A stretch of 64,000 nt of DNA from Microbacterium proteolyticum (GTDB lineage Bacteria; Actinomycetota; Actinomycetes; Actinomycetales; Microbacteriaceae). Below, piece after piece: positions 1 through 64,000 of this stretch. A model generated the notes under the pieces. The model was given only the letters and a program-made list of their open reading frames with translations, searched no databases and was not told where the DNA came from. The stretch lies in the NCBI RefSeq assembly GCF_029639405.1, contig NZ_CP121274.1:124001-188000 (forward strand), given 5' to 3'. The position numbers and the translations under genes were made by a program. Every line of letters begins with the position of its first letter. The stretch's first letter is position 1.

Positions 1-1351
1 ACGCGTGGATGCGGTCGCGCTCGGCGCGCCAGCGGTCGCCGTTGTCGGGGATGTGGCCGCCGTCCGCGAGCCACTGCGCGTCGTCGAGGGCCTTCCAGCA
101 GCCCATCTTCGACGAGGTGTAGTGCTCGAGCTCGGGCAGCTCCCACATGCCGGAGTCCGCGCGCCGCCAGAGATCGCACGTGCGGTCGGCGACGTCGGCG
201 AGCAGCCGCCCCGTCTGGATGTCGAGGCGGTTTCCGGCCTCGACGTACGTGCGGCACAGGGCGATGAGGTCGCCGTAGACGCCGAGCTGCAGCTGGCCCT
301 GCGCGGGGTTGCCGGTGACCACGGGCTGGTTCCCGTTCCACCCCGGAACCTGGTGCTTCTCCAGGCCGATCTCGGCATCGCCGTCGAGGGTGTACATCAC
401 CTGCACCTCGGGACCGTTCTTTCGGATCGTGCGCAGGAGCCACGAGATCGCGGCGTGCGTCTCCTCGCGGAGGCCGAAGCCCACCCACGCGTGCGCCGTA
501 TAGGCGAGGTCGCGCACCCACGCGAAGCGGTAGTCCCAGTTCTTCCCGCCGCGGGGGTTCTCGGGGAGCGAGGTGGTGGCCGCCGCCGCGATGGCGCCGG
601 TGGGGCTGAAAAGCAGGAGCTTGAGGGCGAGCGCGCTGCGCTGCACGTCGTCTGCCCACGGGCCCCGGTACGAGAACTCGTCGGACCACATCTCCCAACC
701 GCCGATCGTGCGGTCGACCCCGCGGTCGACGTTCTGCGCGTCGGGGATGCGGAGCGGTTCGCCCTCCGTCGCGGCGATCACGAGCAGGTGGCGCGAGCCC
801 TCCGCGGTCGTGAAGCCGCCGTCGATGCTCTCGTCGCCGGCATCCGGTTCGCCGCGGAGCCCGTACTCGTGCCCGGTCACCGCGAGCGAGACGTGCCCGA
901 TGCGCATGATCGAGAAGCCGTCGATGCGCTCGGTCCAGGGCGCGGCCGAACGCAGCATCGTCCCCGGCTGCACGCACCAGGCGAACTCGACCTCGCCCGC
1001 CACTCCGTCGACGCGGCGGGCGAGCTCGGCCCAGGGCAGACGCCCGGCGATCCCCGTCACCATCGCGTCGGTGACGGTGGCGACACCGGAGGCGGTGGTG
1101 AAGGTCGTCTCGAGGACGTTGGTGCGCGGGATGTACCGTCGCGTGATCTCGTACTCCTCCACGGGCGCGAGCTGGATGCACCCCCCTGCCGACTCGTCGA
1201 CGAGCCGGGCGAAGACCGGTCGCGAGTGGATGTTGGGCAGCGGAAGCCAGTCGACGCCGCCGTCCAGCCCGATCAGCGCGACCGTCCGCCCGTCGCCGAT
1301 CGCGGCGTAGTCGCGCAGCGGGCGGGACGGCGGAGGCGGGGTCGTGAGCAC
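1..1351 (-). CDS. Glycoside hydrolase family 15 protein (glucoamylase/trehalase-like), C-terminus cut by window edge
   Basis: About 450 codons are visible, read from GTG at 1351 (VLTTPPPPSRPLRDYAAIGD) to the window edge. The N-terminal GH15 beta domain includes IGDGRTVALIGLDGGVDWLP. The catalytic barrel begins with the family signature NWDYRFAWVRD near residue 275. A second conserved block, GMWELPELEHYTSSK near residue 400, carries the expected general-acid Glu region. Actinobacterial GH15 enzymes hydrolyse alpha-glucosides; some mycobacterial members are trehalases, so the substrate is not settled. No signal peptide is seen, so it is probably cytoplasmic. The rest of the protein lies before base 1. 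No strong ribosome binding site precedes the GTG, so the start is tentative. Confidence 0.85.
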   Translation of the reverse strand, partial: MLTTPPPPSRPLRDYAAIGDGRTVALIGLDGGVDWLPLPNIHSRPVFARLVDESAGGCIQLAPVEEYEITRRYIPRTNVLETTFTTASGVATVTDAMVTGIAGRLPWAELARRVDGVAGEVEFAWCVQPGTMLRSAAPWTERIDGFSIMRIGHVSLAVTGHEYGLRGEPDAGDESIDGGFTTAEGSRHLLVIAATEGEPLRIPDAQNVDRGVDRTIGGWEMWSDEFSYRGPWADDVQRSALALKLLLFSPTGAIAAAATTSLPENPRGGKNWDYRFAWVRDLAYTAHAWVGFGLREETHAAISWLLRTIRKNGPEVQVMYTLDGDAEIGLEKHQVPGWNGNQPVVTGNPAQGQLQLGVYGDLIALCRTYVEAGNRLDIQTGRLLADVADRTCDLWRRADSGMWELPELEHYTSSKMGCWKALDDAQWLADGGHIPDNGDRWRAERDRIHA

Positions 1352-1514
1352 GATCCCACGCTAGGAACCGTCTCGCGCCGCGCTTCGGGGGTTGTCGATC
1401 GCGGGCCGAGCGGGTACGGGGCCGGTACCGCGGCACCGTCGCCCTCGCAACCCCCGACCGTCGCCGCGACGCACGACCTAACGTCGAGGGCGACAGCGAG
1501 TGAAAGGAACACGC

Positions 1515-2072
1515 ATGTCCCCCACCACGAAGGACACCCCGACCAAGAACCGCCGTCGCCCGGCCCGCGGCGGCAGCGGCCCCGAGACCACCGACGAGCA
1601 GAACGCCGAGAAGGGCTTCCAGGCTTCGGAGAAGCTCACCGACAGCCTGCAGGCCGTCCTCATCGACCTCATCGAGCTGTCGATCCAGGGCAAGCAGGCG
1701 CACTGGAACGTCGTCGGGAAGAACTTCCGCGACACCCACCTGCAGCTCGACGAGATCATCGACGCCGCACGCGAGTTCAGCGACACGGTCGCGGAGCGCA
1801 TGCGCTCGCTCCACGCCCTGCCCGACGGCCGCAGCGACACGATCGCCGAGACGACGACCCTCCCGGAGTTCCCGCAGGGCGAGGTCGACACGGCCGAGGT
1901 CGTCGACCTCATCACCGAGCGCCTCGACGCGACCGTCGGCACCGTGCGCGCCGTGCACGACGACGTCGACGAGGAAGACCCGACCAGCGCCGACATCCTG
2001 CACGGCATCCTCGAGCGTCTCGAGCAGCTGTCGTGGATGGTCAGTGCGGAGAACCGCGTCGCACGGAAGTAA
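1515..2072 (+). CDS. dps: Dps-family DNA-binding ferritin-like protein
   Basis: 185 residues. Dps proteins form dodecamers that oxidise and store iron and shield DNA in starvation or oxidative stress. The inter-subunit ferroxidase ligands are all present: H63 in QAHWN, H75 and D79 in THLQLDE, and D90 and E94 in SDTVAE, with the spacing of E. coli Dps. The N-terminal 25 residues are rich in Lys and Arg, as in Dps proteins that bind DNA through a flexible tail. The ATG at 1515 is preceded by GAAAGGA at suitable spacing; a GTG at 1500 is in frame but would place that site inside the gene. It stands alone, divergent from the GH15 gene. Confidence 0.95.
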   Translation: MSPTTKDTPTKNRRRPARGGSGPETTDEQNAEKGFQASEKLTDSLQAVLIDLIELSIQGKQAHWNVVGKNFRDTHLQLDEIIDAAREFSDTVAERMRSLHALPDGRSDTIAETTTLPEFPQGEVDTAEVVDLITERLDATVGTVRAVHDDVDEEDPTSADILHGILERLEQLSWMVSAENRVARK

Positions 2073-2138
2073 CCCCATCGGACGATGACACCGGATGCCG
2101 GGGCTCGAGGGCCTCGGCATCCGTCGTCGTCACGCGGG

Positions 2139-2576
2139 TCACGGCGTGGGCAACAGCAGCGGCGGACGCGGACCTTCGAGGCGGGCGATCGAGGCCTTGA
2201 TGTCGGCGAGGTTGACGTCGATGGTGAGCAGACGCCCGTCGATCTGACGCTCCCGCGCATTGATCAGCGCCATGCGCTCGTCGAACCGTGCATCGGCGCG
2301 GTCCATGCGGGCGTCGGCACGATCCATGCGCGCCTCGATCCGCTCGAATCGGTTGTCCACCTGCTCGAACCGTTTGTCCACCTGCTCGAAGCGCTTGTCC
2401 ACCTGCTCGAAGCGCTTGTCGACCTGCGCGAACCCCCGGTCGACCTGCGCGAAGCCCTGCTGGGTCCGCCGCTCGACGCGGTCGAGCATCCACTTCATCC
2501 CGCTCAGGATCGCCGCGGCGAAGGTCACGAAAAAGGCGGCGAGCGCGATGAGCGCTTGAGCGGTGTCGACGTTCAC
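2139..2576 (-). CDS. Small membrane-anchored coiled-coil protein with heptad repeats
   Basis: 145 residues starting at GTG 2576, with AAAGGA upstream. One membrane segment at residues about 8-27 (ALIALAAFFVTFAAAILSG) is followed by a long soluble part made of near-identical seven-residue units such as FEQVDKR, then RMDRADA units. The period of seven with hydrophobic positions implies a continuous coiled coil, probably oligomeric, projecting from the membrane. The tandem 21-bp DNA repeats at 2343-2447 encode these units. No enzymatic motif is seen. Function is unknown; a scaffold or spacer role would fit but is inference. Confidence 0.7.
   Translation of the reverse strand: MNVDTAQALIALAAFFVTFAAAILSGMKWMLDRVERRTQQGFAQVDRGFAQVDKRFEQVDKRFEQVDKRFEQVDNRFERIEARMDRADARMDRADARFDERMALINARERQIDGRLLTIDVNLADIKASIARLEGPRPPLLLPTP
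2343..2447. repeat. Tandem 21-bp repeats, five units, inside a coding region
   Basis: Five consecutive 21-bp units of the type CTCGAAnCGnTTGTCCACCTG start at 2343, 2364, 2385, 2406 and 2427. They encode the heptads of the coiled-coil gene on the minus strand. The middle units are almost identical, suggesting recent copy-number change by slippage or unequal recombination. A related but more diverged pair of 21-bp units lies just before (about 2300-2342). Confidence 0.85.
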
Positions 2577-2691
2577 GGGCGGGTCCTTTCGAGCGGGGTG
2601 TCGTCGAACCTACGCCGCCGCCGGTCGCCCTGCACGCGTACGTGCGCGAACCGTGCACAACTTCACCCCGCCGTCCACCGGGGAGGAAGGG

Positions 2692-5223
2692 TCAGAGCCG
2701 CAGCACCTCGGTGACCCGCACGATCGCCGTGCCCTCTTCCTCGGAGGCGGCGAGATCGACCTCGGCGCGGATGCGCCAGTCGTGGTCGCCGGCGGGGTCG
2801 TCGATCGTCTGCTCGACGCGCCAGATGCCGTCCGTCGCCGCGGACTCGTCGATGTCGACGAGCGCGGAAGACCGTGATGCGCCCCCGGTGCCGATGCTGT
2901 CGTGCTCGTCGAAGTAGCGGTCGAGAACGCCCGGCCAGTCGACGTCGGGATCGAGTCCGACCAGTTCGTCGTCGCGCTGGAGAGCGGCGAGCTGCACGCG
3001 GCGGAACATCTCGTTGCGTACGAGCACGACGAACGCACGGCGGTTCGTGAGGATCGACGGCGGCGCGGGGGGCACCACCGGGGCCGACGGGTCGTCGGCG
3101 GGGTTGATCAGCTGCTCCCACTCGTCCACGAGGCTCGAATCCACCTGCCGCACGAGCTCGCCGAGCCACGCGATGAGGTCGAGCAGGTCGGGCGTCTGCG
3201 CGTCGACCGGCACCGTCTGACGGATCGCGCGGTAGGCGTCGCTCAGGTAGCGCAGGACCAGCCCCTCGCTGCGGGCGAGCTGGTACAGCGAGACGTATTC
3301 ACCGAACGAGCACGCCCGCTCGAACATGTCGCGCACGACCGACTTCGGCGACAACTCGAAGTCGCGGATCCACGGCTGGCTCGACGCGAACACCTCGTAC
3401 GCCTGCGCCAGCAACGCGTCGAGGGGTTTGGGCCAGGTGATCTCCTCGAGCAGTTCCATCCGCTCGTCGTACTCGATGCCCTCGCGCTTCATCGCGGCCA
3501 CGGCCTCGCCCCGCGCGCGGAACTGCTGCTGCGACAGGATCGGACGCGGATCGTCGAGCGTCGCCTCGATCACGCTGACGACGTCGAGGGCGTAGTGCCC
3601 CGTGCCGACCGACGACGCCGGAGGCGCGGCATCCGGCCCCCTGCCGAGTTCGACGTCGGGGTCGAGCATCTCGATCGCGGCGAGCGCGAACGGCGACAGC
3701 GGCTGGTTGAGCGCGAAGTTCGGTTGCAGGTCGACGGTGAGCCGGATGCCGCCCTCCCCCGCCTCGACCACGCCCGCCTGCACCAGGGTGCGGAAGATCG
3801 CGATCGCGCGGCGGGCGAGTTCGTACTGCCGGGGGCGCGGCTCGTGATTGTCGAAGACCAGGGAGCGGACGTTGCCGAACACGTCGCCGCCGCGGGCGAT
3901 GACGTTGATGAGCATCGCGGCCGTGAGCTTCATCTGCGGCTGCAGCGGTTCGGGCTCGGCCGCCACCAGGCGGTCGTAGCTCTGCTCGGTCCAGTTGACG
4001 AACCCCTGCGGCGCCTTCTTGCGCACGATCTTCTTCTGCTTCTTCAGGTCGTCGCCGGCCTTGAGGATCTGCGCGGCGTTCTCGATCTCGTGATCGGGTG
4101 CCATGACGACGACGGTTCCCGCGGTGTCGTACCCCGCGCGGCCCGCGCGGCCGGCGATCTGGTGGAACTCGCGGGCCGACAGCTGGCGCATGCGCGTGCC
4201 GTCGTACTTCGTGAGGGCGGTCAGGAGCACGGTGCGGATGGGGACGTTGATCCCCACGCCCAGCGTGTCGGTGCCGCAGATGACCCGCAGGAGCCCGCGC
4301 TGGGCAAGGGTCTCGACGAGGCGTCGGTACCGCGGCAGCATGCCCGCGTGGTGCACGCCGATGCCCGCGCGCACATAGCGCGAGAGGGTCTTGCCGAAGC
4401 CGGTGGTGAAGCGGAATCCGCCGATCGCCTCGGCGATCTCGTCGCGCCGCTCACGGTCGATGATGCGGATCGACGACAGCGCCTGAGCCCGCTCCATCGC
4501 CGCCGCCTGGGAGAAGTGGACGACGTAGACCGGGGCCTGCTTCGTGTCGAGAAGCTCCTGCACCGTCTCGTGCACGGGGGTGCGGGCGTACTCGAAGTGC
4601 AGCGGCACGGGCCGCTCCACTCCCGTGACACGGGCGGTGGCCCGCCCGGTGCGGCGGGAGAGGTCGTCGGCGATGTCGGCGACGTCGCCGAGGGTCGCCG
4701 ACATGAGGATGAACTGCGCCCGGGTCAGCAGCAGCAGGGGCACCTGCCACGCCCACCCGCGGTCGGGTTCGCCGTAGTAGTGGAACTCGTCCATGACGAT
4801 CTGATCGACGGCCGCGTCCGATCCCTGGCGCAGAGCGAGGTTGGCGAGGATCTCCGCCGTGCAGCAGATGATCGGCGCGTCGGAGTTGACGGAGGAGTCC
4901 CCCGTCACCATGCCGACGTTCTCCGCGCCGAAGATCTCGACCAGCGCGAAGAACTTCTCACTCACGAGAGCCTTGATCGGGGCCGTGTAGTAGCTGCGGC
5001 CGCCCCGGGCGAGGGATGCCGCGTGCGCGGCGACCGCGACGAGGGACTTGCCCGTCCCCGTCGGCGTCGACAGGATCACGTTCGCACCGGAGACGATCTC
5101 GATGATCGCCTCGTCCTGGGCGGGGTAGAGCGTCAATCCGCGGCTGCTCGCCCACTCCACGAACCCGAGGTAGGCGGCATCCGGGTCGCTGCCTGCGGGC
5201 ACATGGTCGAGGAGCGAGGTCAC
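2692..5223 (-). CDS. Ski2-like DEAD/DEAH-box helicase with C-terminal DUF3516-type domain
   Basis: 843 residues from GTG 5223. Superfamily 2 helicase motifs are intact: Walker A TPTGTGKS (53-60), motif Ia PIKALVSEK, DEFH (145-148), SAT (175-177), GINVP (324-328) and QIAGRAGR (355-362). The whole second half (after about residue 380) lacks helicase motifs and matches the actinobacterial DUF3516 architecture as I know it. Relatives act as ATP-dependent RNA helicases in RNA processing or decay; the substrate is not visible here. It is cytoplasmic. GGGTGGAG lies a few bases before the start. No partner gene is adjacent. Confidence 0.9.
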   Translation of the reverse strand: MTSLLDHVPAGSDPDAAYLGFVEWASSRGLTLYPAQDEAIIEIVSGANVILSTPTGTGKSLVAVAAHAASLARGGRSYYTAPIKALVSEKFFALVEIFGAENVGMVTGDSSVNSDAPIICCTAEILANLALRQGSDAAVDQIVMDEFHYYGEPDRGWAWQVPLLLLTRAQFILMSATLGDVADIADDLSRRTGRATARVTGVERPVPLHFEYARTPVHETVQELLDTKQAPVYVVHFSQAAAMERAQALSSIRIIDRERRDEIAEAIGGFRFTTGFGKTLSRYVRAGIGVHHAGMLPRYRRLVETLAQRGLLRVICGTDTLGVGINVPIRTVLLTALTKYDGTRMRQLSAREFHQIAGRAGRAGYDTAGTVVVMAPDHEIENAAQILKAGDDLKKQKKIVRKKAPQGFVNWTEQSYDRLVAAEPEPLQPQMKLTAAMLINVIARGGDVFGNVRSLVFDNHEPRPRQYELARRAIAIFRTLVQAGVVEAGEGGIRLTVDLQPNFALNQPLSPFALAAIEMLDPDVELGRGPDAAPPASSVGTGHYALDVVSVIEATLDDPRPILSQQQFRARGEAVAAMKREGIEYDERMELLEEITWPKPLDALLAQAYEVFASSQPWIRDFELSPKSVVRDMFERACSFGEYVSLYQLARSEGLVLRYLSDAYRAIRQTVPVDAQTPDLLDLIAWLGELVRQVDSSLVDEWEQLINPADDPSAPVVPPAPPSILTNRRAFVVLVRNEMFRRVQLAALQRDDELVGLDPDVDWPGVLDRYFDEHDSIGTGGASRSSALVDIDESAATDGIWRVEQTIDDPAGDHDWRIRAEVDLAASEEEGTAIVRVTEVLRL

Positions 5224-7147: not shown

Positions 7148-7189
7148 ACGACAGAGCCCCGGATGCCATGGCATCCGGGGCTCTGTCGT
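7148..7189. terminator. Bidirectional terminator, 42-nt perfect palindrome containing GGATGCC/GGCATCC
   Basis: Bases 7148-7189 form a perfect palindrome with the core GGATGCCATGGCATCC, flanked by CAGAGCCCC and GGGGCTCTG. It lies between two convergent genes (oxidoreductase plus strand, YiaA-type gene minus strand), so one hairpin can end both transcripts. There is no U-tract, as is common for actinobacterial terminators. Confidence 0.85.
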
Positions 7190-39860: not shown

Positions 39861-40499
39861 GTGGAGACCGCGTGGGTGCGTCGCGTGCTCGTCGTGGAAG
39901 ATCAGCCGGCGATGCGTGTCCTGCTGTGCGACATGCTCGCGCACCGCGGTTTCGAGGTCACCGGCGCGGCCGACGCCGCCGAGGCGACCGGCCTCTTCAC
40001 GGACACGGATCCCGATGTGCTGGTGACCGACATCGACCTCGGGTCGCGGCCCTCCGGCGTCGAACTGGCCACGATGCTCACCGGTCTCGCCCCGCACCTC
40101 GCCGTCGTCTTCCTCAGCAGCTTCCCGGGCGCGGTCGCGGGTGCCGGACGCCCCGGCCCGACCCGCGCGGTGTTCGTGTCCAAGCTCGACGTCAGTTCCG
40201 CCGACGTCGTGGTGGATGCCATCGAGGCGGCGCTGCGCACGACGACACCGCCCGCTCCCCCGGTGCCGCAGCGCGCCTCCCCGTTGGCCGGGCTCACCCG
40301 CCGGCAGGTCGAGGTGCTCGCCCTCGTCGCGCGCGGATGGTCGAACGAGCAGATCGCGCGCGAGCGGGACACGACGACGCGCGCGGTCGAGCGCGCGGTG
40401 AGCCGCATCTTCTCGCGGCTCGGCCTCGGCGCGGCGGGGACGAACCCGCGCGTCCGGGCGAGCGCGCTCTACCTCGCCGAGTTCGGCCCCGTCGGGTGA
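39861..40499 (+). CDS. LuxR-type response regulator
   Basis: 212 residues from GTG 39861. The receiver domain has acidic residues in VVEDQPAMR, acceptor D57 (VLVTDIDL) and the conserved Lys in FVSKLD. The C-terminal LuxR HTH is LTRRQVEVLALVARGWSNEQ, then ERAVSRIFSRLGLG. The linker is Pro-rich (TTTPPAPPVPQ). Its stop overlaps the next gene, a degenerate sensor protein, by GTGA, and two more genes follow closely, so it probably controls its own four-gene operon. Confidence 0.9.
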   Translation: METAWVRRVLVVEDQPAMRVLLCDMLAHRGFEVTGAADAAEATGLFTDTDPDVLVTDIDLGSRPSGVELATMLTGLAPHLAVVFLSSFPGAVAGAGRPGPTRAVFVSKLDVSSADVVVDAIEAALRTTTPPAPPVPQRASPLAGLTRRQVEVLALVARGWSNEQIARERDTTTRAVERAVSRIFSRLGLGAAGTNPRVRASALYLAEFGPVG

Positions 40500-51133: not shown

Positions 51134-51805
51134 GTGACCGACGACGACACCGCGGCCCGGCCGGCCGCGCGGCGGATCGTCGTCGCGGTGGCCGTGGTCG
51201 CGCTGCTGGCCGTCGCCTTCGCGATCGGACGCTTCACCGCGTTCGGTGCGACCGCAGCCCCCGCCACCCCGTCGACCACCTCCGCCGACGCCGGCTTCGC
51301 CCGCGACATGCAGGTCCACCACACGCAGGCGGTGCTCATGGCGATGGAGATCTACCGCAAGACCTCCGACGACGAGCTGCGCACCCTCTCGTACGACATC
51401 GCCACCACCCAGGCGGGTCAGCGCGGAGAGATGTTCGGCTGGCTCGTGCAGTGGGGCCTGCCGCAGGCGTCGTCCCAGCCGCTCATGCAGTGGATGGCTC
51501 CGTCGAGCGCGCACAGCCACGGCGACACCTCCGCGCTGTCCGAGGACGACCTCCTCTCCCAGATGGGGATGGCGACGGATGCCGAGCTCGACCAGCTCCG
51601 CTCGCTCGAGGGGCAGCCCGCCGACTGCCTCTTCCTCGGCCTCATGATCCGCCACCACGAGGGCGCGATCCCCATGGCCGAGGCCGTGGTCGAGCTCGGC
51701 AGCGACCCGCGCGTGAAGGACGTGGCCCAGACGATCATCACTGGCCAGTCGGCCGAGATCGACGCGATGCGCGACATCCAGACCCGCCTGTCCTGCACCG
51801 GCTGA
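51134..51805 (+). CDS. DUF305 domain secreted or membrane-anchored protein
   Basis: 223 residues from GTG 51134. One N-terminal membrane helix or signal anchor (RIVVAVAVVALLAVAFAIGR) is followed by a ferritin-like helical DUF305 domain with two duplicated motifs, DMQVHHTQAVLMAME and MIRHHEGAIPMAEAV. The paired HH and Met residues suggest metal (copper or similar) binding. Function is unproven. It forms a two-gene operon with the DUF3105 gene and ends before a hairpin repeat. Confidence 0.88.
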   Translation: MTDDDTAARPAARRIVVAVAVVALLAVAFAIGRFTAFGATAAPATPSTTSADAGFARDMQVHHTQAVLMAMEIYRKTSDDELRTLSYDIATTQAGQRGEMFGWLVQWGLPQASSQPLMQWMAPSSAHSHGDTSALSEDDLLSQMGMATDAELDQLRSLEGQPADCLFLGLMIRHHEGAIPMAEAVVELGSDPRVKDVAQTIITGQSAEIDAMRDIQTRLSCTG

Positions 51806-51820: not shown

Positions 51821-51889
51821 GCGATAAACGGCATCGACGTCGAGAAACACGGGGATGGCGCGTTTCCGGTCGCGGATGCCGTTTATCGC
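51821..51889. repeat. Intergenic palindromic repeat, second family
   Basis: GCGATAAACGGCATC (51821-51835) pairs perfectly with GATGCCGTTTATCGC (51875-51889); GAAAC (51844-51848) and GTTTC (51862-51866) pair again in the interior. It starts 16 bases after the DUF305 stop and is unlike the arms of the 44463/46089 family. AT-richer arm ends stand out in this GC-rich window. Confidence 0.7.
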
Positions 51890-51899
51890 CGGCAGCAGC

Positions 51900-51940
51900 G
51901 AAGGGGCGTGGCATCCAATCGATGGATGCCACGCCCCTTC
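51900..51940. terminator. Bidirectional terminator with GGATGCC/GGCATCC stem
   Basis: GAAGGGGCGTGGCATCC (51900-51916) pairs perfectly over 17 bp with GGATGCCACGCCCCTTC (51924-51940), loop AATCGAT. It sits between the DUF305 gene (plus) and the sugar ABC permease gene (minus) and can end both operons. Confidence 0.9.
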
Positions 51941-51956
51941 GGCGTTGGTACGGGAC

Positions 51957-52934
51957 TCAGCCCTTCGTCGCTCCGGCGAGGAGACCCCGGACGAAGAAGC
52001 GCTGCAGCAGGAAGAACACGATCAACGGAACGAGGATCGAGATGAACGTTCCGGCCGACTGCAGGAACCACTGGTCGCCCCATGTCCCCGACAGCGAGTT
52101 CAACGACTGCGTGAGCGGCAGAGACGACGACGGCGCGAAGATCGTGGCCACGAGCAGGTCGTTCCACACCCAGATGAACTCCAGTACCGCGAAGGACGCG
52201 AGGGCCGGAGCCGCGAGCGGCAGGATCAGGCGGAAGAACACCTGACCGTGCCCGGCACCGTCCACGCGCGCCGCCTCGATGACCTCGTGCGGGATCTCCG
52301 CGATGAAGTTGTGCAGCAGGAAGATCGCCAGCGGCATCGCGAAGATGACGTGGGCGATCCACACCGTCGCGAAGCTGTGCTCCACGCCACGCAGCTCGAG
52401 CCCGGGGAAGATGGTGACATCGTTGATCGTGAGACCGCGCGAGAACAGGCTCAGCAGCGGCACGAGGGCCATCTGCAGCGGCACGATCTGGAGCGCGAAG
52501 ATAAAGATGAAGAAGAAGTTGCGCCCCTTGAAGTCGATCCACGCGAACGCGTACGCGATGAGCGAGGCGATCGCCAGCGCGAACAGCACGACCGGGATCG
52601 TGATGGCCAGCGAGTTCACGAACGAGGCGGCCAGCGTCAGCGCCGTCCCACCCGACGTCAGCGCGAGACGGTAGTTCTCGAGCGTGAACGACGGATCGGT
52701 GAAGATGGTCCACCACCCGGTCGACTGCGTGTCGGAGCCGGGACGGAACGATGTGACGAGCAGACCGAACGTGGGGATGGTCCAGAAGAACGCGATCGCG
52801 ACGGCGGCGATCGTGGCCCCCTTGGAGGTGAGACGCTTGCGCGCCATCGCCTCGTGCTTGCGCGTGTCGCGGGCGACCTGACGCGCCGAACGCTTGTCGT
52901 CGGTGGGCTCGAGCACCACGGTGGAGGTGGTCAT
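51957..52934 (-). CDS. Carbohydrate ABC transporter permease, MalG type
   Basis: 325 residues from ATG 52934. Six membrane helices follow a basic cytoplasmic N-terminus of about 45 residues. The EAA loop that contacts the ATPase reads EVIEAARVDGAGHGQVFFRL. The end IVFFLLQRFFVRGLLAGATK is typical of MalG-like permeases. The ATG overlaps the stop of the MalF-type gene by ATGA. Last gene of the LacI-controlled transporter operon. No ATPase gene follows, so a shared ATPase (MsmX/UgpC type) encoded elsewhere must serve it. Confidence 0.93.
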   Translation of the reverse strand: MTTSTVVLEPTDDKRSARQVARDTRKHEAMARKRLTSKGATIAAVAIAFFWTIPTFGLLVTSFRPGSDTQSTGWWTIFTDPSFTLENYRLALTSGGTALTLAASFVNSLAITIPVVLFALAIASLIAYAFAWIDFKGRNFFFIFIFALQIVPLQMALVPLLSLFSRGLTINDVTIFPGLELRGVEHSFATVWIAHVIFAMPLAIFLLHNFIAEIPHEVIEAARVDGAGHGQVFFRLILPLAAPALASFAVLEFIWVWNDLLVATIFAPSSSLPLTQSLNSLSGTWGDQWFLQSAGTFISILVPLIVFFLLQRFFVRGLLAGATKG

Positions 52935-54286
52935 CGCACTTCCCTCTGCTTCCGGATCTGGCGCACGTTGAAGATGATCAGCGGCAGGACGAACAGGAAC
53001 AGCACCACGGCCAGCGCTGCGGAGTGCCCGTAGCTCTGGAACCGCTGCTGCTGGTTGACCATCTCGAAGGCGAGGACGGTGGAGTCGTTGCGCCCACCGG
53101 TCATGACCGCGACGATGTCGTAGATCTTCAGGGCGCCGATGGCGATGGTGGTCAGCACGACGATGAGCGACGAGCGGATGCCGGGGACGGTCACGTTGAT
53201 GAATCGCTCCCAGGCGTTGGCGCCGTCGAGTTCGGCGGCCTCCATCTGCTCCGGCGGTACCGCCTTGATCGCCGCCGACAGGATGACCATCGCCAGGCCC
53301 GTCTGGCTCCAGATGAACACGACCACCAGGAGCAGCGTGTTGATCAGCGGGGTCGCCGAGAGCCACGAGACCGGGTCGCCTCCGAACGCCGTCACGATGG
53401 CGTTCAGGATGCCGATCTGGTCGCCCTGACGGAAGTCGTAGACGAACTTCCAGATGATGCCGGCGCCGACGAACGAGATGGCGAACGGCATGAAGATGAG
53501 GACCTTGAGGAACCGCTCCCCCGCGGCGCGGTCGATGAAGACGGCGTAGGCGAGTCCGATCGCGGTGGCGAACGTCGGGGCCAGGAGCACCCAGATCAGG
53601 GTGTTGATGACCGACCAGAAGCCCTCGGGGTTGGTGAAGGTCCAGACGTAGTTGTCGAACCCGACGAAGTTCTGCCCGGTCTTGTCCAGGAACGACTGCA
53701 CCAGCGTCGACAGGGCCGGGTATACCAGACCCATCAGCAGGAGGATCGCGGCGGGAGCGGCGAAGAGGATCAGCTGGAACAGGTAGCCGGCACCCTGACG
53801 CGACCGGTAGTCGGCGTAGAACAGGATCCCGCCGAGGATCACCGCGATCGCGAGGACGTAGATCACCGCGTTCTGGTACGGGCGCAGCAGCATGAAGGCG
53901 AGCACGGGGATCGCGAAGCACGCGGTCAGGCGGATCCAGAAGTAGCGCTTGCCCGAGCGCGGCGCGTACTCGATGAGCAGCAGCAGCAGACCCACGACGG
54001 CGCCGAAGACGAGGAGCACCAGCGGGATCTGCACGAGCGGGTTCATCTCGCCGAGCGTCTTGAAGAAGCTGTTCAGCGAGAACCCGATGGTGGTGGGTTT
54101 GGTCTCGGACGGTGCCCGCGTGACCATGAACAGGAACAGCGCCACCACCGCGATGAGCGCGATGACCACGACCGTGACGGTGGTCCGATGCCTTCGTGCG
54201 AGGTTGCGGGATGCCGTCTCGGCATCCGGCGCCTCGTGTCGGGGAGATGCCGCCGGGGGCTTCTCCGCCTGCCTGATCTGAGTCAT
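52931..54286 (-). CDS. Carbohydrate ABC transporter permease, MalF type with extended N-terminus
   Basis: 451 residues from ATG 54286 (GGGAGGGAAG upstream). The first 160 residues hold three or four extra membrane helices (VTVVVIALIAVVALFLFMV and others) before the usual six-helix permease core, which includes YLFQLILFAAPAAILLLMGL and the EAA loop EQMEAAELDGANAWERFINV. This long form is common in Microbacteriaceae. It pairs with the MalG-type gene to form the membrane channel for a sugar or oligosaccharide. Confidence 0.92.
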   Translation of the reverse strand: MTQIRQAEKPPAASPRHEAPDAETASRNLARRHRTTVTVVVIALIAVVALFLFMVTRAPSETKPTTIGFSLNSFFKTLGEMNPLVQIPLVLLVFGAVVGLLLLLIEYAPRSGKRYFWIRLTACFAIPVLAFMLLRPYQNAVIYVLAIAVILGGILFYADYRSRQGAGYLFQLILFAAPAAILLLMGLVYPALSTLVQSFLDKTGQNFVGFDNYVWTFTNPEGFWSVINTLIWVLLAPTFATAIGLAYAVFIDRAAGERFLKVLIFMPFAISFVGAGIIWKFVYDFRQGDQIGILNAIVTAFGGDPVSWLSATPLINTLLLVVVFIWSQTGLAMVILSAAIKAVPPEQMEAAELDGANAWERFINVTVPGIRSSLIVVLTTIAIGALKIYDIVAVMTGGRNDSTVLAFEMVNQQQRFQSYGHSAALAVVLFLFVLPLIIFNVRQIRKQREVR

Positions 54287-54361
54287 GACTTCCCTCCCGA
54301 ACACGCCGTCGTGCTCATCGATGGACGGGCCGCGCAGCGGCACCGTGTGGGCTTACGGTAC

Positions 54362-56991: not shown

Positions 56992-57024
56992 AGGGACCCC
57001 GGATGCCAGGCATCCGGGGTCCCT
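56992..57024. terminator. Bidirectional terminator with GGATGCC/GGCATCC stem
   Basis: AGGGACCCCGGATGCC (56992-57007) pairs perfectly with GGCATCCGGGGTCCCT (57009-57024); only one base lies between them, so the top of the stem must open. It follows the LacI stop by six bases and ends 14 bases before the stop of the convergent nuclease gene, so it serves both. Confidence 0.88.
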
Positions 57025-57037: not shown

Positions 57038-60000
57038 TCAGTCGGTCTGGCGCACCGACCGGCGGCGGACCACCACGCCCAGACCGAGCAGCGCCAGGGC
57101 TGCCAGAACGCCGGCGCCCATCCACGCACCGTCGGTGCCGGTGATCGCGAGCGCGCCGTCGCCGGCCGAGGCTCCGGCGCCCCCGCCGACCGCGGTGTCG
57201 CCCCCGCCGCCGCCGACCGTCGCGGCATCCGCGAGCCGCAGCGGGACGGTCACGAGGGTCCCCGTCGGCTGAGCGGTGAGCTGCAGCTCGATCACGTCGA
57301 GCGCGTCGGCGGGCACCGTCGCGGTAACGGTCGCCGCTCCTCCGACGACGGCGACCTCGATCGGGTCCCCCGTGCCGAACGACGCCGCGAGGGACGTGTT
57401 CTGCGGTGCACCGAGCGAGGTGAGGTCGAGGTTCGACACGGTGAGAGCGAACTCGTCCCCGGGCGTGACCTCGGCGGGAACACCCGAGACCTGCACGCCG
57501 CGCGCCGTGAAGTCGGGGGTGAGGCCGGGGTGCGCGCGGAGGTAGTCGATCCACCCGTCGCGGTCGACGAGACCGGAGTCGAGCGTGTTCGCACCCTCCG
57601 GGAAGACCGAGAAGCTGTCTCCGCCCCCGAGGAGGAAGCTGAACGATCCCACCCGGTACTCCGCCGCCGGGTCGACGGCCACACCATCGATCCAGATGCC
57701 CAGGACGCGGTCCCCCGCGGGGCGGGTGGCGTCATAGGTGTAGCGGACGTTCTCGGAGACGCCGAGAGCGAGGTTCGTCGTACCTCGACCCGAGGCGTCG
57801 CCCCACTGCTGCTCGAACATCACCCGCAGCTGCTCGCCCGTGAGGGTCGTGGTCCACAGGTTGTTCACGAACGGCAGCACCGCGTTGGCCTCGGCCAGCG
57901 TGACCACCCCGTCGGCGTCGTAGAGCAGTTCGGCCCGCAGCCCGCCCGGGTTGACCACCGCAATGTCCGCGCCGCCCCGTTCGGGATCGGCGAGGGTCTC
58001 GCGGAGCGCATCGGCCACCAGCCCGCCGAGCGCGGACTGCTTCGAGCGGTCGTCGCGCTTGCCGCCGGCGTACACGCCGTCGACGTAGCCGCCCTCCTGG
58101 AAGGCGGTCGTGATGTCGGCGGTGATCGATCCGACCGGCTCACGACCGACGACGTCCGCCTCGGCGCGAGCTGCCGTGACGATGTCGTTCACCTTCGCCA
58201 CGCGCGGATAGGTCGCGATGAGTTCCGCCTCCAGCGCGGCGCCGGCGTCCGCGTTCGGCGCCGACAGGCGAGGCACGTTGCGGGCTGTGTAGTCCACCAC
58301 GTCGCCGCCCTCGTCCACGCTCAGAACGATCTGGCCGATGTTGGCGCCGTAGCTGCCGGTCTGCAGGATCGGGCGAGTGCCGTCGCCGCCGGGGATCGGC
58401 GCATCCCACACGTACTCGGCGTGCGTGTGGCCGGTGAAGATGGCATCCACCGCCGGGTCGGTGTCGTTCACGATCTCCGCGAACGCACCGCCCTGGGCGA
58501 CGGCCTGCTCGAGCGTGGCGGCCGAGCCGCTGAGCTCGGTGCCCTCGTGGTACTGGGCCACGATGACGTCGACCTGATCGTCGATCTCGGCCACGACACG
58601 GTTGACCTCCGTCACGGGGTCACGGAACTCGATGCCCTGGATGCCCTCCTTCGACACGAGCGTCGGCGTCTGCTGCGTGACCGCCCCGATCACACCGACG
58701 CGCACACCGCCGACCTCGAAGACGGCGTAGCCGGGCAGCAGCGGCTGTCCGTCCTTGAAGACGTTGGCCGCGAGGTAGGGGAAGTCGGCGCGATCCGACA
58801 CGCGCCCCGTCAGGTCGGCCACACCCTTGTCGAACTCGTGGTTCCCGGTGCCCGAGGCGGCCAGTTCGAGCGCGTTCAGCACGTCGATCGTGGGCTCGTC
58901 CTGGAACAGCGAGGAGGCGAACAGGGAGGCGCCGATGTTGTCGCCGTTGGAGAGGAACAGCGTGCTGTCGTCGCCGTACTCCGCCCGCAGCTGCTCGACC
59001 GTGCCCGCGAACTTCACGGTGTTGGCGTCGATCCGTCCGTGGAAGTCGTTGATGCCGAGCAGGTTGATGTCGGTCGTCGACGACAGGTCGAGGCCCACGA
59101 TCACCGGGTCGTGGTCGCTCGAACGGTAGGGCGAGGTCTCGTAGAAGTTCAGCGCGTTGTAGTTGTAGCGGCTGTACTCGAGAGCCAGCGCCTCCACGGC
59201 GTTGATGTTCCAGATGTCGGTTCCCGTGACCAGTTCCCGTGCCGACGGCGACGCGAGGACGTGGTCGAGCGAACCGGACTGCCCGTCGTACGAATACGAG
59301 TACTTGCCCGTTCCGGTCTCGAGCGGCTCGAAGCCGAACGAGCGGAGCTTCTCGATCGGGTCCTCCTGCGTGTAGGAGTTGAAGTCGCCGAGCAGGAACA
59401 CGTCGTCGGTGCCGAGCGCCGCCGACCGCTCCTCCGCGAAGTTCCCGAGGGCCTCCGCCTGGCGGACACGGTCGCCGTTGAAGGCCCCCTGGATGCCGTC
59501 GGCGTTGTCGCCCGTGGCCTTCGGGTCGCTGTCGCCCTTCGACTTGAAGTGGTTCACGATCGCCAGGATCGCGGCATCCGTGTCGCCGACCGGGGCGAAG
59601 GCCTGCGCGAGGGGCTGTCGGGCGTTCGTGAACGCGGGGTCGTCGAGGATGACGCTGTCACCGACCGGCTCCACGACGGCCTTCTTGTAGATGAAGGCCG
59701 TGCGGATGACGTCCTCCGACGCCGGGAGCGCGGCCGGCGACGGCACGAACGCCCACTGCTCGGACGCGAGGGCGTCGTTGAGGGCCGCCACGAGCGTCGA
59801 CAGGGCAGCGTCGCGGCCCTTCCCGAACTTCGCCGAGTTCTCGATCTCCTCGAGCGAGACGACATCGGCGCCGAGGCCGTTGATCGCCGCGACGATCTTC
59901 GCCTGCTGACGCTCGAGATTCTCGTCGTTCGCCGCGCCTCGCGGACCGTTGTCGGGGCAGGAGCGCGCCGTGATGGGGTTGCCCTCACGATCGTCGTAGG

Positions 60001-61618
60001 TCGACGTGCAGCCGACGCTCTCCGCCGTGGTGGTGAAGTAGTTCAGCACGTTGAAGCTGGAGATCTTGACGTTGCCGCCGACCGGCTCGGGAGCGCTCTT
60101 CCGGGTGTTCTCGAAAGACGCCGGCTGCACGGTGTCGGCGTTGTCGACGGTGAGCTGCTCGGTGGGCTGGAACGTCCACACGTCGTTGCGGAAGTCGAGG
60201 ATCACCGGGGTCTCGAACGTCACGGCCGCGCCCACGCGCACGGGGTTCTCGAGCGACACGTACGGCAGCGGGTCGTTCTTGCCCGTGGTGAGGTAGTTCA
60301 GGGAAGCACCGTCGTCGAGCACCACGCCGCGCGCCTCGTTGTCGGCCACGGCGTCGTCGTATTGCGTCGTGCCGGGGCGGGCGACGTCCGTGGGGCTGCG
60401 CAGCGGCGTCGTTCCGGACGCCAGACCGAGGACGGCATAGCGGTTGGTGTCGTAGTTGTTCGTGACGGTGAACTCGCCCGTCGGCGCGAGGAGCATCCCC
60501 TCGAACGACTCGCGGTCCTCTTCGCCCGCCGGCCACGCGATCGCGGCGGGCTGGACCGCCGCGGCCACCTCATCGAGCACGCGCACGCCGTCCGCGGGCG
60601 CGGAGATTTCCGTGAGGGAGTTGTACTCGGACACGACGCCGGTGACCTCGACGAAGTCACCCTTCTGCACCTTCGCCGTCGCGGCGGACCCGAAGACGAA
60701 GATCGCGTCGGATGCGGTGTGGGCCGCGACGTCGATGTCGCCGCCGGTCCCCGGCGTCTGGATGTAGAAGCCGTTGTATCCGCCGGTCGGGTAGGCCGCC
60801 GTGACGACGCCGCGGGTCGTCACCGTGGTCCCCACGAGCGGCGAGGACTCGCCGGTCCCCTGGATGTCGCGGATGGCGACGGCCTCTCCCGGCGTCGGCG
60901 CCGGTGTCGTCGGCTCCGTCGTCGGCGTGACGGGCGGCTCCGGTTCCGGTTCGGCGCCCGAGGAGTTCCGCGGGGTGACCGTCGTCGCGTTGGTGAAGTC
61001 CGCCGAGTTGTCCCCCGTGTCGGTGAAGTCCGTCCGCACGAGAGAGTTGGGGGTCCCGTTGGGACCGTCGACCACGGCCGGCGCCGTCTCGAAGGCCGCG
61101 GCGCTCCCGTAGCCGAGGAAGTCCACGACGCGGGGGTCGTCGACGTCGCCCGCCGGGAGGGCGAGCGACTCGGCGACGTTCGCCAGGAAGAGCTGCCCGT
61201 TCGTCCCCGAAGGGTTCAGCCCGGTGCTCGTGGCATCCGGGGTCGGCAGGTCGGCGCCGGTGTCCCCGTTCCCGCGGATGGAGACGAGGTAGTACCCGCC
61301 GGGGGCGATGGAGCCGCTCAGCGCCTGCGTGTTCGCCGCGGACGGCACGTCGGTGCTCGCCGCCGGGCGGTACTGCAGCGACCACCCGGTGAGGTCCTGC
61401 GCGGTGTCGCCGGCGTTGTGGAGCTCGACGAACTTGTCGTTGAAGGGCGCTCCGGCGCTGCCGCCCTTGAGGTACGCCTCGTTGATCACCACCCGGGGGC
61501 CGTCGGCGGCGTACGCCGCAGCGGGAACGAGGGCGGATCCGAACAGCGCGGCGCCCAGGACGGCACTGAGGGTCGTGGTGAATCGGCGCGCGGACGCGCG
61601 GGAGGGTGCGTGATGCAT
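57038..61618 (-). CDS. Secreted multidomain nuclease / 5'-nucleotidase with LAITG cell-wall sorting signal
   Basis: 1526 residues from ATG 61618. Residues 1-38 are a signal peptide ending AAAYAADG. Then a lamin-tail domain (about 40-215), a Pro/Thr linker, an OB-like region (245-500), an ExeM-type endonuclease/exonuclease/phosphatase domain (517-845: ISSFNVLNYF, SLEEIENS, LLGDFNSY, SSDHDPVI), a metallophosphatase (852-1090: INDFHGRID, NGDNIGA, GTGNHEFD, FTGHTHAEY) and a 5'-nucleotidase C domain (1130-1310, NPGGLRAELL). The tail has LAITG, a hydrophobic helix and RRRSVR, a sortase class E-like signal. It can degrade extracellular DNA and release phosphate and nucleosides. Confidence 0.93.
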   Translation of the reverse strand: MHHAPSRASARRFTTTLSAVLGAALFGSALVPAAAYAADGPRVVINEAYLKGGSAGAPFNDKFVELHNAGDTAQDLTGWSLQYRPAASTDVPSAANTQALSGSIAPGGYYLVSIRGNGDTGADLPTPDATSTGLNPSGTNGQLFLANVAESLALPAGDVDDPRVVDFLGYGSAAAFETAPAVVDGPNGTPNSLVRTDFTDTGDNSADFTNATTVTPRNSSGAEPEPEPPVTPTTEPTTPAPTPGEAVAIRDIQGTGESSPLVGTTVTTRGVVTAAYPTGGYNGFYIQTPGTGGDIDVAAHTASDAIFVFGSAATAKVQKGDFVEVTGVVSEYNSLTEISAPADGVRVLDEVAAAVQPAAIAWPAGEEDRESFEGMLLAPTGEFTVTNNYDTNRYAVLGLASGTTPLRSPTDVARPGTTQYDDAVADNEARGVVLDDGASLNYLTTGKNDPLPYVSLENPVRVGAAVTFETPVILDFRNDVWTFQPTEQLTVDNADTVQPASFENTRKSAPEPVGGNVKISSFNVLNYFTTTAESVGCTSTYDDREGNPITARSCPDNGPRGAANDENLERQQAKIVAAINGLGADVVSLEEIENSAKFGKGRDAALSTLVAALNDALASEQWAFVPSPAALPASEDVIRTAFIYKKAVVEPVGDSVILDDPAFTNARQPLAQAFAPVGDTDAAILAIVNHFKSKGDSDPKATGDNADGIQGAFNGDRVRQAEALGNFAEERSAALGTDDVFLLGDFNSYTQEDPIEKLRSFGFEPLETGTGKYSYSYDGQSGSLDHVLASPSARELVTGTDIWNINAVEALALEYSRYNYNALNFYETSPYRSSDHDPVIVGLDLSSTTDINLLGINDFHGRIDANTVKFAGTVEQLRAEYGDDSTLFLSNGDNIGASLFASSLFQDEPTIDVLNALELAASGTGNHEFDKGVADLTGRVSDRADFPYLAANVFKDGQPLLPGYAVFEVGGVRVGVIGAVTQQTPTLVSKEGIQGIEFRDPVTEVNRVVAEIDDQVDVIVAQYHEGTELSGSAATLEQAVAQGGAFAEIVNDTDPAVDAIFTGHTHAEYVWDAPIPGGDGTRPILQTGSYGANIGQIVLSVDEGGDVVDYTARNVPRLSAPNADAGAALEAELIATYPRVAKVNDIVTAARAEADVVGREPVGSITADITTAFQEGGYVDGVYAGGKRDDRSKQSALGGLVADALRETLADPERGGADIAVVNPGGLRAELLYDADGVVTLAEANAVLPFVNNLWTTTLTGEQLRVMFEQQWGDASGRGTTNLALGVSENVRYTYDATRPAGDRVLGIWIDGVAVDPAAEYRVGSFSFLLGGGDSFSVFPEGANTLDSGLVDRDGWIDYLRAHPGLTPDFTARGVQVSGVPAEVTPGDEFALTVSNLDLTSLGAPQNTSLAASFGTGDPIEVAVVGGAATVTATVPADALDVIELQLTAQPTGTLVTVPLRLADAATVGGGGGDTAVGGGAGASAGDGALAITGTDGAWMGAGVLAALALLGLGVVVRRRSVRQTD

Positions 61619-61719
61619 GGGTCTCCAAGTACCGACGCACGCAACGAAGCGACGCCGGATGGGGGGATCGACGGGGGGTCCCTTAGACCGTAAACGAAGA
61701 CATATCGATTTCCCAGACT

Positions 61720-61746
61720 CCGATGTTTCGAATCGGTGAACATCGG
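61720..61746 (-). promoter_or_regulatory. Inverted repeat upstream of the secreted nuclease gene
   Basis: CCGATGTT (61720-61727) and AACATCGG (61739-61746) form a perfect 8-bp inverted repeat about 100 bases before the nuclease start. On the minus strand it includes GTTCACCGATT, which resembles one unit of an actinobacterial PHO box. With only one unit the match is weak. Confidence 0.35.
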
Positions 61747-61786
61747 TGTCACCCACGCCGGTACGCGGTGTCATCACGCGGGAACG

Positions 61787-61822
61787 ACGAAGGCCCGGAT
61801 GCCGTGGCATCCGAGCCTTCGT
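61787..61822 (-). terminator. Terminator after rplL, GGATGCC/GGCATCC stem
   Basis: ACGAAGGCCCGGATGCC (61787-61803) pairs with GGCATCCGAGCCTTCGT (61806-61822) with one mismatch and a 2-nt centre. It lies 21 bases after the rplL stop, in the direction of rplJL transcription. No U-tract follows. Confidence 0.85.
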
Positions 61823-61843
61823 GTACCGCGAAGGTGAACTGAA

Positions 61844-62999: not shown

Positions 63000-63029
63000 A
63001 CTGTACCAAGCCCCGACACTGTGCGCCAA
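63000..63029 (-). promoter_or_regulatory. Promoter of the rplJL operon
   Basis: On the minus strand TTGGCG (63029-63024), an 18-bp spacer and TACAGT (63005-63000) give a good housekeeping promoter. It would produce a leader of about 210 bases before rplJ, holding the L10-type structure and the attenuator. Confidence 0.6.
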
Positions 63030-63073
63030 ATCCTCGCGGCCCCGTGTCCGCGGCCGCCCGCGCGCGCCGCGCC

Positions 63074-63093
63074 GCCCCGCCCCGCCCCGCCCC
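63074..63093. repeat. Short tandem repeat (GCCCC)x4
   Basis: Four exact copies of GCCCC in a row, within a stretch of almost pure G/C (63046-63098). It is a simple repeat just beside the long hairpin at 63099-63176 and has no coding role. Confidence 0.8.
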
Positions 63094-63098
63094 ACCGC

Positions 63099-63176
63099 CG
63101 AGGGCCCACGATCCGGTCGAGTGCCCACGTTCCGGTCGACTCATTCGTGGGCGCTCGACCGGATCGTGGGCCCTCG
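63099..63176. repeat. 78-nt intergenic hairpin with direct and inverted repeat units
   Basis: The arms 63099-63129 and 63146-63176 pair over 31 bp with one G-T-type mismatch around a 16-nt loop. The left arm plus loop holds two direct 19-nt units starting with GCCCACG and continuing TCCGGTCGA (63104-63122 and 63123-63141); the right arm holds the inverted unit. It lies between the rplJ promoter region and the end of the defence-like gene (stop at 63201) and could end that gene's transcript. Confidence 0.75.
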
Positions 63177-63200
63177 CCGTCCGACACGATGCCCGCAAGC

Positions 63201-64000
63201 TCACGGCGGGAGGCGGACACCGAACGAACGCAGGCGCTCGGCAAGCGTTTCCGGGGTGGCGATGTCGCGGAAGCCGCCGCGACACACGCGCCACTGAGTG
63301 GTTCCGCGAATCCAGTCCTCTCGACGCTTCTCTGCCAAGACGACGTCATCGATCGACCTCCCCGCCCGCAGATCCCGATCGCGATACTTTCCCTCACCAT
63401 CGAACTCCCAGAACGTGCGGACCTGGGGCAACCCGATGTCGGCGAAATACATCGAGCCCGACGGTCCCGCGATCGCCACCTGCACGTCCATATCGCGGAA
63501 TCCGAGCCGGAACAGTTGGAGTCGACTGACGCTTTCCCCCGGCAACTCGGCGCGCGCATCAGCGAACTCGATCAGCCATCGGGCCGCGGTGACACCGCGC
63601 CGGCCGGCCGACCGCGCCGCACGTTCTCGCATCCGGTCCCGCCAGGCCTCTTGCCTCGCCCCGTCCACGCCGTGGCCCTCACCCGCCACGCGTCGGACGG
63701 CGGCATCCGCACACGAGACCGACACTTCGAGCCCGCAGGTCCGCGCGACATCGAAAACCGTCCTCTCGAGCGAGGTGCACCGGATACCGTCGATCTCGAC
63801 GACATCACCCTCGTCGAGCCGGTCACGACGTCGGCGAACGCCCGGGCGACTCGAGCCGCGGGAACCGGGCGCCAGAGTGAGCTCCACGGGCTGAGCCATG
63901 AAGCGGTACTGCGGTAGATCGTGCAGAACCGCAGCGGAGAGGTGCGAGACGACGGCACCCCCATCCCGCATACGCGCGACGACCGCCAGCGTGTCGAGCC
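63201..64000 (-). CDS. AbiEi/DUF559-like protein, N-terminus cut by window edge
   Basis: The frame runs from the window edge to the stop at 63201. An internal ATG lies at 63971, but coding sense continues upstream (LDTLAVVARMRDGGAVVSHL), so the true start is probably outside. The first half resembles the AbiEi-antitoxin-like and 'transcriptional regulator' group common in Actinobacteria (VVEIDGIRCTSLERTVFDVA). The C-terminal part resembles a DUF559/VSR-type nuclease fold: FADIGLPQVRTFWEFDGEGK, then VVLAEKRREDWIRG. Function is unknown. No toxin partner is visible on this side. Confidence 0.7.
   Translation of the reverse strand, partial: LDTLAVVARMRDGGAVVSHLSAAVLHDLPQYRFMAQPVELTLAPGSRGSSRPGVRRRRDRLDEGDVVEIDGIRCTSLERTVFDVARTCGLEVSVSCADAAVRRVAGEGHGVDGARQEAWRDRMRERAARSAGRRGVTAARWLIEFADARAELPGESVSRLQLFRLGFRDMDVQVAIAGPSGSMYFADIGLPQVRTFWEFDGEGKYRDRDLRAGRSIDDVVLAEKRREDWIRGTTQWRVCRGGFRDIATPETLAERLRSFGVRLPP

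Follow-up and report, generated by a model that had tools for sequence, protein, structure and literature searches.

Short words spread densely over a whole genome are few: HIP1 (highly iterated palindrome 1), whose purpose is unknown, and the uptake sequences, whose purpose is known. The DNA uptake sequences (DUS) of Neisseriaceae and the uptake signal sequences (USS) of Pasteurellaceae are over-represented short words found on both strands and as inverted pairs at terminators; the eight Neisseriaceae DUS dialects share the core CTG (passages of PMC3630211). HIP1 (GCGATCGC) and the alternate HIPs of cyanobacteria occur about once per 1,000 bases, replace one another by lineage, and accompany methylases able to act on them, and some HIP1-rich genomes have no CGATCG methylase (passages of PMC4390886). 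No earlier report of a dense genome-wide word in Actinobacteria was found in the open-licence literature, and literature matches to GGCATCC were primer-type noise among the matches listed. Here, we describe such a word, GGATGCC (complement, GGCATCC), in a window of 64,000 nucleotides of Microbacterium proteolyticum (contig C2:124001-188000 of a 3.97-Mb genome, referred to as G000). Other words take its place in relatives, and twice independently the word changed together with part of an orphan methyltransferase (methylase), of which it is probably the target.

The word was found throughout the window, as follows.

1-64000, 52 copies on the forward strand and 53 on the reverse strand: word GGATGCC, 105 copies, about 1.6 per kb.

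The initial annotation had estimated about 50 copies of each orientation against roughly 15 expected, and these figures hold well: 100 dinucleotide shuffles gave 14.21 copies (standard deviation [SD], 3.80; maximum, 29). GGATGCC ranked first among the 7-mers of the window by first-order z score (105 versus 14.4 expected) and was the top 7-mer in 404 kb of the chromosome by second-order z score (689 versus 105.3). Under a maximal-order model of the window, it fell outside the top 25 because its own 6-letter subwords carry the excess. The extended consensus built from the flanks of the 105 window copies was YGGATGCCR, with C56, T24, A14, and G11 before the word and G72, A28, C4, and T1 after it; the shade of the flanks differed among genomes, with R following the word in G000, mostly G in G106, and a looser pattern in G393. 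Over the whole genome, GGATGCCR occurred 3,239 and 3,181 times on the two strands, versus 142 and 133 times for the reversed control, and CGGATGCCG occurred 901 and 877 times, versus 51 and 53. The 23 one-letter neighbors of GGATGCC were jointly at expectation (924 observed, versus 924 at order 2 and 1,013 at order 3), and singly they ranged from 0.47 to 2.2 of the order-3 expectation. In no neighbor did a depletion approach the size of the excess, and Vsr-like single-base conversion was rejected on this basis. The avoidance or neutrality of sites of the restriction-modification type was not seen for GGATGCC, which is in several-fold excess.

The word was at background level on the sampled plasmid, a 136-kb second contig, and on low-GC chromosomal stretches. 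Three 20-kb stretches of the plasmid and the chromosomal stretches L052 and L061 had 0.15 to 0.35 copies per kb, L059 and L068 had 0.7, and the remaining sampled stretches had 1.3 to 3.2. The GC content of L052, L061, and L059 (0.3, 0.35, and 0.7 words per kb, respectively) was 0.63 to 0.66. These word-poor chromosomal stretches are probably recent arrivals, and the word could serve as a flag for genomic islands.

A pressure acting on the DNA word rather than on the protein had been proposed from the window, and the coding sequences bear this out. When synonymous codons were shuffled 100 times, the excess stayed, far from the codon-aware expectation: the 52 called genes of the window had 73 copies, versus 20.3 (SD, 3.2; maximum, 28), and 549 genes of a genome sample had 1,055, versus 284.5 (SD, 12.5; maximum, 315). 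The codon pairs named initially, GAT-GCC (27 cases in window genes) and GCA-TCC (18 cases), are indeed common, and GGC-ATC-C (17 cases), which had not been named, is common as well. We then tested, in 243 called genes, five coding frames at places where the protein permits the word. In G-GAY-GCC-R contexts, GAT was chosen in 185 of 220 cases (84%, versus 17% overall), and the word-making codons GGA (17/20; 85% versus 11%), CAT (16/17; 94% versus 13%), and GCA (111/141; 79% versus 5%) were favored in the same manner. The fifth frame, GGC-ATC-C (109/115), proves little because the outgroups were also high (19/21). Outgroup loci from Arthrobacter, Nocardioides, Aeromicrobium, Sanguibacter, and Knoellia showed no codon shift (GAT, 4/42; GCA, 3/33).

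In favor of a codon-pair or mutational bias without function, control words also departed from the codon-shuffle null, by up to about 1.8- to 1.9-fold (CGAGCAG, 524 versus 342; TCGCCGA, 1,084 versus 600; GGACGCC, 332 versus 531; all by a factor below 1.9). GGATGCC, however, departed from it by a factor of 3.7. Besides the choice of rare synonyms in four of the five frames, the density of the word was equal inside and outside called genes of G000 (2.0 and 2.0 per kb), and a bias without function accounts neither for the background level that plasmid and low-GC DNA show within one cell nor for the replacement of GGATGCC by other words in relatives. The sites were also kept in place. Among 156 ordered pairs of 13 aligned loci (pairs that are not independent), the fraction of words kept, compared with that of same-composition control words, was 0.80 versus 0.55 at 88 to 95% identity, 0.70 versus 0.41 at 84 to 88%, 0.585 versus 0.32 at 80 to 84%, and 0.48 versus 0.30 below 80%; above 95% identity (2 ordered pairs), the gap was small (0.88 versus 0.85). 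Such a bias is thus already disfavored, and we regard it as highly improbable.

Next, the distribution of the word was examined in relatives. One window protein was used to gather 40 named loci that encode its relatives; the closest came from Microbacterium sp. CSI-V (96%), which places the window in Microbacterium. The 12 Microbacterium loci L009 to L020 all had an excess, with 25 to 48 copies versus 3.1 to 5.8 expected, and a 13th, L025, was less enriched (18 versus 6.0); no excess was found in the loci of other genera in this sample, the highest ratio being 9 copies versus 4.1. In 299 genomes of the Microbacteriaceae, the excess recurred across the family but varied, YGGATGCCR ranging from below the reversed control to more than 20 times that control. 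With one genome taken per genus, 40 of 85 genera had a ratio of at least 5. Within Microbacterium (198 genomes), GGATGCCR ranged from about 1.5 to 33 times the control. In two genomes of genus g52, G051 and G121, YGGATGCCR was below the control (26/24 versus 71/73 and 30/27 versus 72/59 on the two strands), and the alignment search described below gave no strong methylase match in either.

Other words stood out where GGATGCC was poor. In the GGATGCC-poor genome G164, the top 6-mer was GGATCC (656 versus 179, both strands counted). We therefore compared 17 hand-picked GGATGCC-poor Microbacterium genomes with 9 GGATGCC genomes. Ten of the 17 were rich in YGGATCCR, with 1,558 to 4,186 sites per genome, versus 144 to 681 in the GGATGCC genomes and 128 to 750 in the other seven poor ones. 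Words were read in five of these seven (all except G330 and G336): G411 and G448 had the dialect word CGGAACCA (185 versus 10.3 in 200 kb), and no word stood out in 60 kb each of G382, G455, and G476, the last two of which lack the methylase. In genus g36, GGAGGCGC was found in all six genomes at 1,278 to 1,532 copies per strand, 2.1 to 3.6 times the reversed control (47 versus 10 in 60 kb), versus 55 to 698 per strand, or 0.5 to 2.05 times the control, in 10 other genomes. One 20-kb stretch of G034 (genus g35) had 84 copies of GGATCC versus 47.5, both strands counted. Across a large family, no fewer than three dialects are clear and a fourth is weaker, and all four words, GGATGCC(R), GGATCC, CGGAACCA, and GGAGGCGC, contain GGA. 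Of GGATGCC, GGATCC, GGAACCA, and GGAGGCGC, only GGATCC is a palindrome. It has one A per strand, as does GGATGCC; in GGAACCA and GGAGGCGC, every A lies on the strand that reads GGA. In G045 (genus g46), 8-mers such as CTCGATAC, CGATACGC, and GATCAGCA, which are unlike the GGA words, stood out in 140 kb.

A candidate gene that changes with the word was found elsewhere on the chromosome.

C2:606131-607096, outside the window: orphan methylase gene, beta class, RsrI/CcrM-like, adjoining lplA.

A methylase of this family (PF01555; about 300 to 400 residues) was present in 28 of 32 genus genomes, and a search with a five-sequence alignment gave strong matches in most of the 299 family and 198 genus genomes. 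The protein has the catalytic motifs DPPFN and FAGSG. Its solved kin are the adenine enzymes M.RsrI (E = 1e-33), CcrM, and MboIIA, and several of its listed homologues are annotated as adenine-specific DNA methyltransferases; by kinship, the predicted enzyme is adenine specific. It resembles these beta-class enzymes in sequence and motifs, and CcrM is likewise an orphan methylase. Its presumed target differs from theirs and appears to change between close relatives, and the sites are strongly over-represented in the genome. A Pfam scan of 10 called neighbors over 18 kb in G000 only, in which small or doubtful open reading frames (ORFs) were left unscanned, found no restriction-type domain; the neighbors encode a binding protein, a heme oxygenase, a DUF2470 protein, a lipoyl ligase, a hydrolase, a MarR protein, two MFS proteins, a LuxR-type protein, and an FMN dehydrogenase.

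On the LplA tree as on the methylase tree, GGATCC requires no fewer than two independent origins. In the methylase alignment, 7 of 299 columns set the 17 sequences from GGATGCC genomes apart from the two GGATCC clades (of 6 and 3 sequences), and 5 of the 7 lay within one stretch of 17 columns; the overlap expected by chance was 2.0 (P = 0.0016, with columns taken as independent). As a control, none of 352 LplA columns separated the same groups. The two GGATCC clades had long methylase branches (0.60 and 0.69) and short LplA branches (0.076 and 0.064). In G411 and G448, the methylase was very divergent (branch of 2.06) and did not adjoin lplA. A single methylase residue (K/R versus S/T in DYGAK..) was rejected as the sole determinant because G296 breaks the rule. 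The enzyme is mostly vertically inherited. Mobile spread was rejected, since every matching record among 50,697 phage and 72,556 plasmid records was below 60% identity at its best place, and the 80 viral-contig loci compared, of 270, reached 61% at most. The uncultivated viral contigs L262 to L276 encode methylases 46 to 61% identical to the host family, possibly a phage mimicry of the host mark. Three other candidates did not follow the word: a 5-methylcytosine (m5C) methylase (PF00145) was found in only 15 of 32 genomes and was unlinked to the dialects, the mismatch nuclease NucS was present in 36 of 36 genomes and thus not co-lost, and the uptake channel ComEC was present in 58 of 58 genomes, with or without the word.

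The orientation of the copies was then analyzed. As had been noted initially, both orientations were equally common and no strand bias like that of the FtsK-orienting polar sequences (KOPS) was found, with 701 copies on the G-rich replication strand and 668 on the C-rich strand. In a sample of 103 genomes, the forward and reverse counts of the 59 with at least 3,500 copies were tighter than binomial, with a variance ratio of 0.49, versus 1.1 (n = 33) and 2.2 (n = 11) in poorer genomes. Pairs were binned by distance (1 to 20, 20 to 40, 40 to 80, 80 to 160, and 160 to 320 bases). In 724 kb of G000, the observed-to-expected ratios of same-strand pairs were 0.40, 0.23, 0.42, 0.63, and 0.79, and those of opposite-strand pairs were 1.40, 1.33, 0.99, 1.25, and 1.05. 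The same-strand ratios were 0.63, 0.60, 0.96, 0.96, and 0.97 in G393 and 0.34, 1.41, 1.24, 0.70, and 1.06 in G106; four control words showed no same-strand depletion of that kind. Neighbors were oppositely oriented in 60% (G000), 54% (G393), and 55% (G106) of cases, versus 45 to 49% for seven control words, and GGAACC in G411 and G448 reached 54%, versus 44 to 48% for its three control words. Asymmetric words therefore tend to alternate in orientation, strongly in G000 and modestly elsewhere. Regular overall spacing was rejected: the gaps were near Poisson in G000 (coefficient of variation, 1.00, with a dip at 40 to 80 bases, 25 versus 45.7) and for GGATCC in G164 (1.04), so that orientation is structured more than spacing.

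The exactness and density of the word and its strand-specific short-range repulsion in G000 speak for a Chi-like or replication-linked role in steering recombination or the processing of the chromosome. Chi and KOPS, however, are usually strand skewed. The near-equal replication-strand counts led us to reject a replication-guiding word, and strand counts more equal than chance in the word-rich genomes also speak against the Chi-like alternative, which we consider very unlikely.

Starting from the observed word, its dialects, its conservation in place, its alternation, and its covariation with the enzyme within the genus, we favor, with somewhat better than even confidence, GGATGCC(R) as the target of the chromosomal orphan adenine methylase, which would recognize the word and mark one strand per site. 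The methylase would modify the adenine of the GGA that all dialects share, and at an asymmetric site one strand alone would carry the mark; such one-strand marking would be natural, given that GGAACCA and GGAGGCGC lack an A on the strand opposite their GGA. A long-term pressure would keep the sites at about 1 to 3 per kb on both strands, so that both daughter duplexes would carry local marks after replication. A change in the target-recognition part of the enzyme would then bring about a slow rewriting of the word of the genome (GGATGCC, GGATCC, CGGAACCA, GGAGGCGC). In repair, replication, or defence, the mark may serve to tell strands apart or to recognize self DNA. A methylase target under a two-strand pressure would explain the exactness of the word, the fixed GGA of the dialects, the alternation, and the absence from newly arrived DNA. 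More speculative, and in our view improbable as a whole, is an actinobacterial strand-marking system in which the methylase would mark one strand, dense words in alternating orientation would ensure that both daughter duplexes carry marks directly after replication, the mark would tell repair (e.g., NucS) or defence which strand or DNA is old or self, and a change of enzyme would force the rewriting into dialects. If the word is the methylase target, these genomes offer a natural experiment on the rewriting of thousands of genomic sites that follows a shift in DNA-binding specificity. They also offer a direct test of the purpose of orphan methylation in bacteria without MutSL repair, MutS and MutL being absent in Actinobacteria (passages of PMC8228993).

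Several observations weigh against the methylase as the enzyme that reads the word. Among the 198 genus genomes, 9 gave no match to the methylase, two of these genomes being 44% and 76% complete, and 4 gave weak matches only; the lplA slot, read in 8 genomes without a strong match, held neither a methylase nor a recognizable remnant. Four methylase-less genomes were nevertheless dense in GGATGCCR, at 33.3 (G393, the highest ratio noted in the genus), 15.8 (G439), 15.2 (G414), and 11.6 (G354) times the control; the other four (G324, G435, G476, and G455) were at 5.6 to 4.1 times. A recent loss of the methylase is possible in the dense genomes, but it leaves the looser flanks of G393 unexplained. 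The GGATCC genome G488 also had no methylase match; this may be an assembly gap, since its lplA match was missing as well. Conversely, the enzyme is present in G382 and G045, in which no clear word was seen. In 85 genus representatives, a GGATGCC ratio of at least 5 was only weakly linked to the presence of the enzyme (39 of 79 with it versus 1 of 6 without; P = 0.014), and some family genomes without a strong match were still rich, namely G220, G281, G113, and G225 (the last two incomplete). Presence of the methylase is therefore neither strictly needed nor sufficient for the word, and the more telling evidence is that part of its sequence changed with the word more than once. Even there, the discriminating columns were picked post hoc and treated as independent. 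The excess of GGAGGCGC is just 2.1 to 3.6 times the control, with one genome outside g36 reaching 2.05, and the alternation, clearest in G000, is less pronounced in G393 and G106 and weak in the case of GGAACC (54%). Finally, the search across genomes covered only four gene families (ComEC, m5C methylase, N6/N4 methylase, and NucS) besides the methylase alignment and the LplA query, so that the word may in truth be read by the product of some other gene that covaries with it.

A close parallel is HIP1. The density of about one word per kb, the lineage-specific replacement, a methylase that covaries with the word, and some word-rich genomes without a methylase are all alike here. The HIP model for cyanobacteria offered by Elhai in 2015 invokes strand choice in mismatch repair (passages of PMC4390886); in a corresponding mechanism here, a methylase together with mismatch correction would create or keep the word as a by-product or a repair mark. 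The depletion of same-strand pairs within a few hundred bases in G000 would fit this, and the strand choice of NucS is listed as open in passages of PMC8228993. However, NucS was found in all 36 genomes tested, with or without the methylase and the word, so no co-loss was seen. None of the one-letter neighbors was depleted near the excess of the word (about 530 to 550 copies), as directed single-base correction might leave, and the methylase is by kinship an adenine enzyme, whereas the model has one of the GmeC type. The words differ from HIPs too: three of the four are asymmetric, GGATCC alone being a palindrome, and neighbors tend to alternate in orientation. Furthermore, the word here shifts together with the recognition part of a single orthologous enzyme, the modified base would probably be N6-methyladenine, and the host is actinobacterial. 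A methylation-directed repair bias is thus, in our judgment, doubtful as the origin of the word.

In the window, eight inverted pairs of the word had starts no more than 25 bases apart; three of them folded as hairpins, two of which sit between convergent genes, and several others were inside genes.

7161-7176: inverted pair forming a perfect, terminator-like hairpin between convergent called genes ending at 7143 and 7201; RNA fold, -38.4 kcal/mol; z, -8.7.
57001-57015: inverted pair forming a terminator-like hairpin between convergent called genes ending at 56986 and 57038; RNA fold, -33.2 kcal/mol; z, -6.5.
51910-51930: inverted pair forming a long hairpin, about 100 bases past called gene 51134-51805 or, alternatively, at the beginning of uncalled ORF 51855-53033; RNA fold, -42.4 kcal/mol; z, -7.9.
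61797-61812: inverted pair at the start of the 1,590-residue gene 57038-61810 (reverse strand).
41682-41695: inverted pair within the called gene 40469-42181 (reverse strand).
54209-54227: inverted pair within the called gene 52931-54343 (reverse strand).

The pairing in terminators that had been claimed for the window thus recurs in the three hairpins near gene ends. Together with about 1 to 1.6 exact copies per kb on both strands, background levels on the plasmid and low-GC stretches, a three-letter core shared by the dialects as in DUS, and ComEC in every genome tested, it recalls the initial interpretation as a DNA uptake sequence, in which a competence surface receptor would prefer word-bearing DNA and recombination would enrich the word (DUS/USS type, with dialects). 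Uptake would explain the dialects and the terminator pairs equally well as a methylase target. However, ComEC was present regardless of the word and does not discriminate, and the gene found to covary with the word encodes a DNA methylase. Nothing in the data links the word to uptake, no search for uptake receptors having been made. The words also differ from DUS and USS in having 6 to 8 letters and in their tendency to alternate, which would be unexpected if a double-stranded receptor accepts either orientation. In addition, the one-letter neighbors were jointly without excess, and no match on competence in Microbacterium was found in the open-licence literature. An uptake function is in our view unlikely, though still a rival, and the methylase-target reading is preferred.

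Two genes of the window encode proteins with recognizable domains. The 1,590-residue product of 57038-61810 has lamin-tail, exonuclease/endonuclease/phosphatase, metallophosphatase, and 5'-nucleotidase C-terminal domains and is probably a secreted nuclease/nucleotidase. The gene at 2692-5223 (reverse strand) encodes a DEAD-box helicase whose C-terminal half is DUF3516.

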